From an uncultured Oscillospiraceae bacterium (GTDB lineage: Bacteria > Bacillota > Clostridia > Oscillospirales > Oscillospiraceae): DNA of 16,816 bases. The first letter of the stretch is position 1; each line of letters begins with the position of its first letter. Of this stretch, positions 14,709-16,816 are shown one piece after another. Both the position numbers and the translations under genes were made by a program. Where the stretch lies: contig CAKUNY010000025.1 in assembly GCA_934668605.1 (NCBI GenBank), forward strand, positions 1 through 16,816, written 5' to 3'. The notes beneath the pieces are model-generated. The model searched no databases and was not told the DNA's origin. It saw only the letters and a program-made list of their open reading frames with translations.

Positions 14709-15284
14709 ATGCAGTATAAATTTTTTGCGCTCATCTCGCGCATGCGCTACATTGCCCGGTGGGGGCTGATGCGCAACACGTTTCAGGAGAACATTCAGGA
14801 GCACAGCCACATGGTGGCCGTTCTGGCGCACGCGCTGGCGCTCATTGAGCGGGACATTCTCGGAGGCTCTGCTGACCCTGACCGGTGCGCGGCGGCGGCG
14901 CTTTTCCATGATGCGTCCGAAATTCTGACGGGCGATCTGCCGACGCCCATCAAGTATTATAATCCGGAGATCAAAAAGGCGTATAAGAGGATCGAGGCCG
15001 TGAGCTGCGAGAAGCTGCTGGCGCTTTTGCCGGAAGAGCTTCGGCCGAGCTATGCGCCGCTGCTGCTGGAATCGGACGAAGAGGTGGCCGTGATCGTGAA
15101 GGCGGCGGATAAATTGTCGGCGTATTTAAAATGCGTTGAGGAGCTAAAGGCCGGGAACGCGGAGTTTACGCAGGCGGAAAAGCAGACATACAAGGCGCTT
15201 GTGGATATGCAGCTTCCGTGCCTTGATTACTTCATGGAACATTTTCTGGAGAGCTTCCGGCTGACCCTGGATGAGCTGGAGTGA
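14709..15284 (+). CDS. yfbR: 5'-deoxynucleotidase, YfbR type (HD domain)
   Basis: This 191-aa cytoplasmic HD-domain phosphohydrolase removes the phosphate from deoxyribonucleoside 5'-monophosphates, tuning dNTP and thymidine pools. It matches E. coli YfbR over its length (199 aa). R17 and W18 (IARWGLMRN) correspond to the residues that recognise the deoxyribose. Metal ligands are H32 (EHSHMVA), H67 and D68 (LFHDASEILTGDLPTPIKYY) with E71, and D134 (KAADKLSAYLKCVEEL). The end (LDYFMEHFLESFRLTLDEL) is also characteristic. The chosen ATG has GGAGG with 5-nt spacing; an upstream in-frame ATG at 14691 abuts the MATE stop and lacks such a site. It is probably co-transcribed with the second MATE gene. 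No T-tailed terminator was seen after it. Confidence 0.93.
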   Translation: MQYKFFALISRMRYIARWGLMRNTFQENIQEHSHMVAVLAHALALIERDILGGSADPDRCAAAALFHDASEILTGDLPTPIKYYNPEIKKAYKRIEAVSCEKLLALLPEELRPSYAPLLLESDEEVAVIVKAADKLSAYLKCVEELKAGNAEFTQAEKQTYKALVDMQLPCLDYFMEHFLESFRLTLDELE

Positions 15285-15350
15285 CGGGCGTTTTGTAAAA
15301 AACGTGCAATTGAGCCAAAATTGCAGGCAAAAATATGACAAAACTCACAC

Positions 15351-15379
15351 TTGCCTTTCTGGGGAGCAGCCGGTATAAT
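15351..15379 (+). promoter_or_regulatory. Promoter of the uraA leader
   Basis: -35 TTGCCT (15351-15356) and a perfect -10 TATAAT (15374-15379) are 17 nt apart. Transcription should start near 15385, leaving a leader of about 220 nt before uraA. Confidence 0.82.
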
Positions 15380-15409
15380 GGCTGACGGTAAAAGTACGGA
15401 AGGAAGTGC

Positions 15410-15526
15410 ATGGCGATGAAACAGACGATCTGTCAGAAAATCATCCTCGGCGCTCCCGTTTTTGTTTCGGGCGGCAGTGTTTTCAAAACGCCGGATTGGT
15501 GTTTTTCCAAGATACAGGAATTGTGA
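15410..15526 (+). CDS. Putative 38-aa leader peptide upstream of uraA
   Basis: The frame begins ATGGCGATGAAACAGACG and encodes a peptide starting MAMKQTICQKIILGAPVF and ending WCFSKIQEL, 38 aa in all. It lies about 25 nt after the predicted transcription start. A purine-rich AAGGAAG site sits with about 6-nt spacing, as good as those of the real genes nearby. The stop codon TGA (15524-15526) is inside the 5' arm of the terminator at 15516-15557. U-rich stretches fall inside or late in the frame (15459-15467, 15480-15483, 15502-15506). A ribosome finishing this frame would cover the terminator arm and favour read-through. No known leader peptide is recognised. The function is inferred from layout only, and the frame could be chance. 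Confidence 0.5.
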   Translation: MAMKQTICQKIILGAPVFVSGGSVFKTPDWCFSKIQEL

Positions 15527-15535
15527 TTGGTGTTT
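15494..15535 (+). repeat. 11-nt direct repeat within the attenuator
   Basis: GATTGGTGTTT occurs at 15494-15504 and again at 15525-15535. The second copy supplies the upper 5' arm and loop of the terminator. The first is followed by TTCCAA and can form a separate small hairpin (TTGG at 15496-15499 with CCAA at 15507-15510). The copies may act as alternative pairing partners. Confidence 0.5.
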
Positions 15536-15557
15536 CCATTCACAGTTCCTTTTTTTT
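15516..15557 (+). terminator. Leader terminator (attenuator) ahead of uraA
   Basis: AGGAATTGTGATTGG (15516-15530) pairs with CCATTCACAGTTCCT (15536-15550), with one T-T mismatch and one T-G wobble. The loop is TGTTT and seven Ts follow (15551-15557). It has every feature of an intrinsic terminator but lies between the uraA promoter and uraA, 51 nt before its start. It should therefore act as a regulated attenuator. Confidence 0.85.
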
Positions 15558-15608
15558 GGGCTTGTGAGCGCGGCAGTCTGAAGCGTGGAAATGAGGAAGG
15601 AGATTACA

Positions 15609-16816
15609 ATGGGTAAAAAGAAGATTCCCGAAGAAGGCATCTATGATGCAAGAGAGCTCGGTGCGGGCAGAATGTTCGTGCTCGGCTTCCAGCACATGTT
15701 CGCAATGTTCGGCGCGACGGTTCTGGTTCCGATCCTGACCGGCCTTGATGTGTCGACGACGCTGCTGTTCGCAGGTCTGGGCACGCTGCTGTTCCACCTG
15801 ATCACGGGCGGCATTGTCCCGGCGTTCCTCGGCTCGTCCTTCGCGTTCCTCGGCGGCTACGCGACGATCGCTCCGATGATCGACGGCCAGCCGAACCACG
15901 AAATGCTCCCCTACGCCTGCTTCGGCGTTGCGTGCGCGGGTCTTGTGTATGTGATTCTCGCGGCGCTGTTCAAGTCCTTCGGCGCAAAGAAGGTCATGCG
16001 CTTCTTCCCGCCGATCGTCACCGGCCCCATCATCATCGCCATCGGCCTGAACCTCTCGTCCTCCGCCATCAACAACTGCGCGCAGAACTGGTGGATCGCG
16101 ATGGTCGCCATTGTCATCATCATTGCCGCCAACATCTGGGGCAAGGGCATGATCAAGATCATCCCGATCCTGCTCGGCGTCATCGGCTCCTACGTCATCG
16201 CGGTGATTGCAGACCCTGCTGTCCGCGAGAATCTGGTTCAGAATGTGTCCAACGCCAAGTGGTTCGCGCTTCCGATCTACAAGGATGAGACGGTCTTCGG
16301 CCTGTTCATGAACGGCAACGTCGACTCCCACCTGCTTCTGACCTCGGTCATTACGATCGTCCCCCTGAGCCTTGCTACGATGGTCGAGCACATCGGCGAT
16401 ATTTCCGCGATTTCCTCCACCTGCAACCGCAACTACATTGAAAACCCGGGTCTGCACAGAACCCTGATGGGTGACGGCCTGGCAACGACTCTTGCGGCGC
16501 TCTTCGGCGCGCCCGCCAACACCACCTACGGCGAAAACACCGGCGTTCTCGCACTCAGCAAGATCTACGACCCGCGCGTGATCCGCATTGCGGCGATTCT
16601 GGCCATGTGCTTCTCCTTCAGCCCGAAGTTCGCGGCCATCATCTCCTCCATGCCCGGCGGCACCATCGGCGGCGTCAGCCTCGTGCTCTACGGCATGATT
16701 TCCGCAGTCGGCGTGAGAAACGTTGTGGAAAACAAGGTTGACTTCACGAAGTCCAGAAACGTCCTTGTCGCGGCCTTGATCCTGGTGCTCTCGATCGGCA
16801 TCAGCTACTCCTCCGC
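15609..16816 (+). CDS. uraA: Uracil permease UraA (3' end outside the window)
   Basis: The frame is open from 15609 to the window edge (402 codons; E. coli UraA has 429), so only the C-terminal end is missing. It is an NCS2-family membrane symporter that brings uracil in with protons for pyrimidine salvage. The match to UraA covers the whole length: FQHMFAMFGATVLVPILTGL (27-46), the substrate-site strand GSSFAFLGGYA (75-85, F78 equivalent to F73), VEHIGDISAI (259-268) with E260 equivalent to E241, and NTTYGENTGVLALSK (304-318) with E309 equivalent to E290. D264 stands where E. coli has H245; an EHIGD form occurs in many Clostridia. The ATG follows AGGAG with 6-nt spacing. The 15285-15608 gap upstream carries its promoter, leader frame and attenuator. 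Confidence 0.94.
   Translation, partial: MGKKKIPEEGIYDARELGAGRMFVLGFQHMFAMFGATVLVPILTGLDVSTTLLFAGLGTLLFHLITGGIVPAFLGSSFAFLGGYATIAPMIDGQPNHEMLPYACFGVACAGLVYVILAALFKSFGAKKVMRFFPPIVTGPIIIAIGLNLSSSAINNCAQNWWIAMVAIVIIIAANIWGKGMIKIIPILLGVIGSYVIAVIADPAVRENLVQNVSNAKWFALPIYKDETVFGLFMNGNVDSHLLLTSVITIVPLSLATMVEHIGDISAISSTCNRNYIENPGLHRTLMGDGLATTLAALFGAPANTTYGENTGVLALSKIYDPRVIRIAAILAMCFSFSPKFAAIISSMPGGTIGGVSLVLYGMISAVGVRNVVENKVDFTKSRNVLVAALILVLSIGISYSS

Follow-up and report, generated by a model that had tools for sequence, protein, structure and literature searches.

Several previously described systems control genes by means of a leader that ends in an intrinsic terminator. The closest to the locus reported here is the pyrBI operon of Escherichia coli, in which RNA polymerase pausing depends on UTP, and in which the leader gene pyrL provides a short frame with a strong ribosome binding site and a U-tract before the terminator. 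At the rph-pyrE attenuator of E. coli, a U-rich tract is likewise present and translation continues up to just before the terminator. Pyrimidine genes of the Firmicutes, including the gene for the uracil permease, are controlled by PyrR attenuation (Rfam family RF00515), and amino acid attenuators of the trp/his type also consist of a leader frame and a terminator. In the Clostridia the coupling of transcription and translation is doubted, and this lineage is thought to be uncoupled by default. For pyrBI, a passage of PMC5021804 describes that coupling across the leader prevents the terminator from forming. According to PMC7858274, coupling is loose in Bacillus, and terminators located close to stop codons mark uncoupled genomes; an overlap of stop codon and terminator is therefore no proof of coupling when taken alone.

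The uraA leaders described below share with pyrL the short frame, the strong ribosome binding site and the U-tract before the terminator, but the pyrL frame continues across its terminator, with a stop codon 44 nt past the 5' end of the stem, whereas the uraA frames end at the stem base or within the stem-loop. pyrL thus served as a positive control for the parts only, as the stop window of our pipeline would have missed it. Furthermore, the uraA leaders would control uptake rather than pyrB, occur in another phylum and encode peptides that cannot be aligned with that of pyrL. Because of these last two differences an independent origin is probable and, as far as the sequences tell, the uraA leader is probably non-homologous to pyrBI and likened to it by function, not by descent. 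The uraA leaders differ from rph-pyrE in that their frames comprise 13-45 codons instead of a full gene, and from the trp/his type in that neither a run of a single codon nor an antiterminator helix was found. Among the matches listed in open-licence PMC papers, we found no description of such a uraA leader in the Clostridia.

Organization of the uraA leader in the window

The window, which is the whole stretch of 16,816 nucleotides of DNA from an uncultured Oscillospiraceae bacterium that was analysed, contains a gene for an NCS2 nucleobase permease, uraA (15609..16814, plus strand), that runs off its end. The product matches PF00860 (uracil/xanthine family, E-value 2.6e-83) and its best-scoring solved structures are the uracil permeases 8omz, 5xls and 3qe7, while the NCBIfam uracil permease model gave 284.7 bits, below the equivalog cut-off of 477. 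As assigned by family alone, UraA probably transports uracil. On its upstream side the leader adjoins a gene for a YfbR-like 5'-deoxynucleotidase (PF12917, 14691-15281), which is also related to nucleotide metabolism.

The leader itself, all elements of which are on the plus strand, starts with a sigma-70-type promoter (15351..15379) that was found by a sequence scan. Its boxes TTGCCT (15351-15356) and TATAAT (15374-15379) are separated by a 17-nt gap and match the consensus at 10 of 12 positions, in line with the near-consensus promoter of the preliminary description, although 0.8 sites of such quality are expected per 2 kb of shuffled DNA and the promoter alone is thus weak evidence. It is followed by a Shine-Dalgarno sequence, AAGGAAG (15400..15406), and by a leader frame (15410..15526) that comprises 38 codons and the stop codon TGA (15524-15526) when read from the ATG at 15410. 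This 38-codon frame had been credited with a good ribosome binding site; the frame is indeed present, but AAGGAAG gives a better score when combined with a second in-frame ATG, at 15416, from which 36 codons are read. Three U-tracts (15459-15463, 15480-15483 and 15502-15506) are found, as described before, in the second half of the frame, and the region that they span (15459..15506) is proposed to be a UTP-sensitive pause region. The intrinsic terminator (15516..15557) folds into a stem-loop of −19.1 kcal/mol (15516-15550) followed by a U8 run (15550-15557). The leader stop codon sits within the 5' arm of this terminator and the ATG of uraA at 15609 lies 51 nt past the U-run, so that the strong terminator holding the stop codon and the reported spacing to uraA were both recovered. 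This required a wider custom scan, which replaced a first terminator scan that had missed the structure at a loop limit of 8 nt. The stretch 15386-15562, which includes the terminator, has a more stable fold than its shuffled versions (z = −2.5). Lastly, the fold of a leader from the nearest genus (L001), together with inspection, pointed to a possible Shine-Dalgarno hairpin, H1 (15402..15457), in which 15402-15409 would pair with 15450-15457; the pairing is 8 of 8 in L001 and, by inspection, 7 of 8 in the window, with one mismatch.

Recurrence of the layout before uraA in related genomes

A scan of genome contigs confirmed at least 584 uraA relatives, the best 80 of which were taken. In addition, uraA was detected at an E-value of 1e-60 in 166 of 400 genomes that were sampled from the nearest relative's family, and further upstream regions were added (80 fetched from genomes and 10 from the loci of the 400-genome sample). 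Together with the window this gave 171 upstream regions, with a few genomes represented twice and many of the relatives being metagenome assemblies; dropping regions shorter than 200 nt and merging duplicates left 163 unique regions, window included. At loose settings, 63 of the 171 regions contained a terminator and a frame ending in or near its stem. A near intrinsic terminator was found in 82 of the 163 unique regions, and 54 of these 82 also have a short frame, preceded by a ribosome binding site, that ends in or beside the stem, as compared to 7.4 ± 2.5 such frames expected when the 160 nt upstream of the stem are shuffled (kinship ignored). With strict settings, 46 of the 82 regions showed the layout versus 1.0 ± 1.0 in shuffles, where kinship was again ignored and three genomes were counted twice (L025/L117, L024/L120 and L036/L122). 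The thresholds for the layout were fixed after the first leaders had been viewed. All three genomes of the nearest genus have the layout and, as had been anticipated, the short frame is kept in the uraA leaders of related Oscillospiraceae. When the start codons were retained during shuffling, a null that was run on positives only and does not provide a p-value, roughly half of the frames (28.7 of 54) still ended within the terminator zone, and the position of the stop codon is for this reason less telling than the layout as a whole. The 28 terminator-bearing regions without an accepted frame include some from other families with other hairpins, as well as three regions (L159, L181 and L189) in which the frame reads through the terminator.

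For the comparisons that follow we used a set of 60 leaders, including the window, for which three rows were dropped as judged to be chance or tails of other frames (L028, L076 and L085) and nine were added by eye (L150, L152, L157, L158, L162, L170, L179, L183 and L186). Two likely members, L086 and L087, were excluded by the limit on the stop position. A −10 box with at least 5 of 6 matches is located 23-42 nt before the leader start in 52 of the 60 leaders, whereas 12.7 ± 2.5 were found in shuffles.

The specificity of the layout was assessed in 1.2 Mb (about 47%) of the genome of one relative, in which 1404 genes were crudely called as Shine-Dalgarno-preceded frames of at least 130 amino acids. 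A near upstream terminator was present for 118 of these genes, and the strict layout was encountered once, before uraA. Relaxed settings gave nine rows, namely uraA and eight others, with uraA having the highest U content. These data bear on the view that the window merely combines a terminator of upstream read-through with random frames and is constitutive. Each of the parts (promoter, terminator and frame) is common by itself and eight other rows do appear at relaxed settings, but the combined layout is strongly enriched over shuffles, is specific for uraA in the scanned stretch and includes a separate promoter located at a fixed distance. Since relatives show the same layout above shuffles, the layout in the window is not due to chance, and we regard such a coincidental origin as extremely improbable.

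We also searched for pyrB in 46 genomes of the leader set, which gave 38 matches in 37 genomes, and the loci of 30 were scanned. The leader device was seen before pyrB in 0 of these 30 upstream regions, two of which had less than 300 nt of upstream sequence; if UTP is sensed, uptake alone is therefore served. Among 151 genomes of the order to which one leader genome (G018) belongs, 16 had uraA (E-value 1e-90), with a clear leader in G018 alone; of two other loci of this order, L288 has a hairpin deep inside which a frame ends (+21), and L287 a terminator without an accepted frame.

Other arrangements were noticed along the way. A common hairpin, GCACGC-AAGGAGGGA...CCUCCU-GCGUGC, precedes uraA in Oribacterium and other Lachnospiraceae (L033, L049, L050, L054, L061 and L065) and hides a Shine-Dalgarno-like sequence; Rfam gave no match at gathering score for L033, L049, L054 and L061. 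Five loci (L030, L044, L068, L076 and L078) have a terminator-like hairpin before uraA with a common loop containing CTTGACGG, which perhaps overlaps a −35 box, and Rfam gave no match for L030 and L078. By eye, L168 (genome G109) has its Shine-Dalgarno sequence inside the 5' arm of the terminator and a 9-codon TTG frame filling the loop. A U-run inside the 5' arm of the terminator was seen in L163, L167, L175, L180 and L188, with a TTG or GTG start in 4 of these 5.

Constraint on frame, U content and peptide

In 29 of the 60 leaders the stop codon of the frame lies at −3 to 0 nt relative to the stem base; in another 29 it falls within the stem-loop, and in 2 it precedes the stem by 5-7 nt. The preliminary description had expected the stop codon to stay inside the terminator arm, and what relatives keep is a stop in or at the terminator. 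No alignment of the leader peptides is possible across the class; even the three leaders from the nearest genus (L001, L002 and L003) encode different peptides.

For indels, we compared 19 pairs of leaders with at least 66% identity. In the 7 pairs that are at least 73% identical, the frames are free of indels in 6 and have one 3-nt indel in the seventh. Two of the remaining 12 pairs are gap-free, and the other 10, with an identity of 0.70 or less, align with non-triplet gaps that may represent alignment noise or real change. Our conclusion is based on the 7 closest pairs, because the nine pairs that are indel-free or have a triplet indel had been picked as such. In 6 of the 7 close pairs the spacer between terminator and uraA carries indels, but this spacer is not the sole yardstick, as the 30-nt 5' UTRs of the nine pairs are indel-free in 6 of 9. 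The preliminary description had raised the case of a frame that is broken while the terminator is kept: close pairs retain the frame, yet the 28 terminator regions without an accepted frame stand beside them. It had also suggested a conserved frame with synonymous-biased changes; the conserved frame is seen in close pairs, and the 94 changed codons in 8 gap-free pairs comprise 65 nonsynonymous and 29 synonymous changes. Constraint on the leader peptide would accordingly seem weak at best.

These observations weigh on a mechanism in which the nascent peptide stalls its ribosome in response to uracil or a nucleotide, and the terminator is in turn obstructed by this ribosome. For such a stall, a stop codon located at the stem would be a suitable site, but with peptides that vary even in the nearest genus and mostly nonsynonymous changes, we consider peptide arrest highly unlikely.

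In contrast to the peptides, the U content of the leaders is retained, as had been proposed for the U-tracts. The U fraction climbs from about 0.2 to 0.53 toward the stem in the 60 leaders, 51 of which contain five or more U in some 6-mer of the 60 nt before the stem. Over the 34 nt before the stem, the U fraction is 0.446 in the 46 strict leaders, as compared to 0.311 in the 36 other terminator-bearing uraA upstream regions and 0.236 (sd 0.095) at 139 gene-upstream terminators of one relative, 4 of which reach 0.44, that of uraA included. Among synonymous codon pairs, the ratio NNT/(NNT+NNC) reaches 0.68 over the final 12 codons versus 0.51 in earlier ones (p = 2e-6); in uraA itself this ratio is 0.17 (16 leader genomes), a weak control because uraA has its own codon bias. 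Because the preference for U includes synonymous third positions, selection seems to act on RNA composition rather than on the peptide, which seems less important than translation and U content.

The same build, with the ribosome as mediator, might nevertheless respond to another signal, such as the general speed of translation, the charging of Phe or Ser tRNA, or the general speed of the polymerase. Toward their ends the frames encode many F and S residues (15.3% and 14.8%, respectively, over the last 12 positions of 54 frames), and the role of the ribosome is better supported than the identity of the signal. However, the U bias extends to synonymous third positions, the frames have no fixed run of one codon, the gene downstream is that of a probable uracil transporter, and the strict layout occurs before uraA alone in the 1.2 Mb that was scanned. 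We thus judge a signal other than UTP to be unlikely, though worth bearing in mind.

PyrR, terminator pairing and a model for uraA control

A PyrR protein (NF003549 above cut-off) was found in 1 of 59 leader genomes (0 of 16 and 1 of 43) versus 17 of 37 other genomes (Fisher p = 7e-8, with kinship ignored and the 37 others being a non-random sample); the leaders thus differ from PyrR attenuation, which requires both this protein and its RNA site. PyrR was also absent from the 2 genomes with doubtful leaders (L012 and L021), and in the sole leader genome that has it (G324) the protein is encoded on the contig of pyrB. In 20 of the 37 other genomes neither PyrR nor an accepted leader was found, so a genome that lacks PyrR need not have the leader; some of these PyrR-less genomes (G192 and G129, and those of L159, L181 and L189 with read-through frames) look like variants. 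The 12 genomes chosen for a pyrR gene beside uraA all have PyrR, by selection. An alternative wiring, with pyrR directly before uraA, was observed at L008, L015-L017, L023, L034, L038, L040, L046, L055 and L069. At L085 (genome G091) a leader appears by eye to have decayed, with a ribosome binding site and a U-rich tract and no accepted frame, and PyrR is encoded elsewhere in that genome.

At gathering score, no Rfam family, purine and related families included, matched anywhere in the window, and up to E = 10 there were just two matches in 15280-15640, one to a plant microRNA family and one to a human lncRNA family. The RF00515 model did not match in the window or in 18 genomes picked for their leaders; this model is insensitive here, since it matched 7 of 12 PyrR-bearing genomes, none of them above its cut-off. 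The reported absence of a PyrR-type loop from the leader is consistent with these searches and with the lack of PyrR in 58 of the 59 leader genomes.

If an upstream RNA segment competed for the terminator, its 5' arm should find a partner. Instead, pairing of this arm with the upstream leader (−7.76 kcal/mol) is, if anything, weaker than in shuffles (−8.28 kcal/mol, p = 0.013); 3 of the 60 leaders are at or under the 5% tail, and an upstream partner as strong as the terminator stem was found in 0 of 60. A competing structure of the ligand type was likewise not found across the 60 leaders, and a riboswitch or PyrR reading was rejected on the basis of this result, the Rfam searches and the PyrR count. 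For a ligand- or protein-binding RNA in general (a riboswitch, PyrR or another factor) with an incidental small frame, one may point to the stable fold of the leader and to the recurrence of the Shine-Dalgarno pairing described below. Against it stand the unconserved leader sequences and the retention of the frame in close pairs, besides the weak arm pairing, the missing PyrR and the lack of Rfam matches, and we regard it as very unlikely. As no RNA competitor for the terminator arm was found, the ribosome is the likeliest and simplest antiterminator. According to PMC4824070, shifting a stop codon in E. coli closer to a terminator, from a distance of 28 bp to one of 5 bp, lowered the efficiency of this terminator from about 90% to less than 10%, and full efficiency required more than 27 nt from the stop codon; the stop-terminator geometry of the leaders is inside this effective range. 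The same source states that ribosomes fail to reach the polymerase within the first 100 bp unless special pausing occurs, and names pyrBI as a case where pausing lets this happen.

The Shine-Dalgarno sequence of the leaders is predicted to pair with a pyrimidine tract, as its probability of being unpaired is 0.169 versus 0.273 in shuffles (n = 60, p = 3e-7), with at least 11 of the 60 leaders showing the opposite trend. The partner frequently ends at the U-run, as in L031, L035, L110, L169 and L178. In the window itself this pairing is not above shuffles (0.41 versus 0.42). The Shine-Dalgarno sequence of pyrL (E. coli K-12) is also predicted to pair with the pyrimidines of its own pause tract (0.00 versus 0.15 in shuffles, 3% of which were as low). 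Speculatively, such pairing may form a pause hairpin, a gate on ribosome loading or both, and pairing with the ribosome binding site could partly explain the U-rich codons.

Taken together, the promoter, the frame with its stop geometry, the U bias, the terminator, the lack of an RNA antiterminator and the anticorrelation with PyrR, all read from sequence, argue for a translation-dependent, pyrBI-like attenuator that gauges UTP before uraA in PyrR-less Oscillospiraceae, a reading with a probability of roughly 0.75 that agrees with the pyrBI-type attenuator of the preliminary description. From these features we infer translation of the leader, pausing, UTP as the signal and the ribosome as antiterminator. 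Transcription, as suggested by the −10 box, would start about 15-35 nt before the leader frame. When UTP is ample, the polymerase would outrun the leader ribosome, the terminator would fold and uraA would be off. When UTP is scarce, the polymerase would slow down on reaching the second, U-rich half of the frame, allowing the ribosome to close up and to cover the 5' arm of the terminator at or near the stop codon; with the terminator blocked, read-through into uraA would lead to more uracil import. In this scheme the Shine-Dalgarno-pyrimidine hairpin might induce pausing or gate the loading of ribosomes. Loose coupling in Bacillus had been put forward as an argument against such a device, but we see no objection in it, because a polymerase running uncoupled would correspond to the OFF state, and one slowed at low UTP would provide the condition for contact. 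A more specific proposal, which we hold tentatively and at somewhat less than even odds, is that in PyrR-less Oscillospiraceae the race between ribosome and polymerase independently became a UTP gauge through conditional coupling, the Shine-Dalgarno-pyrimidine hairpin timing both ribosome entry and the polymerase pause.

If the attenuator reading is true, UTP sensing by ribosome-polymerase coupling, which is known from enterobacteria, arose or persists in the Clostridia. About 60 natural leaders with directly testable geometry are at hand, and the leader could serve as a reporter for coupling in the Firmicutes. For the bacteria themselves, the finding suggests how gut bacteria that lack PyrR control the uptake of uracil.
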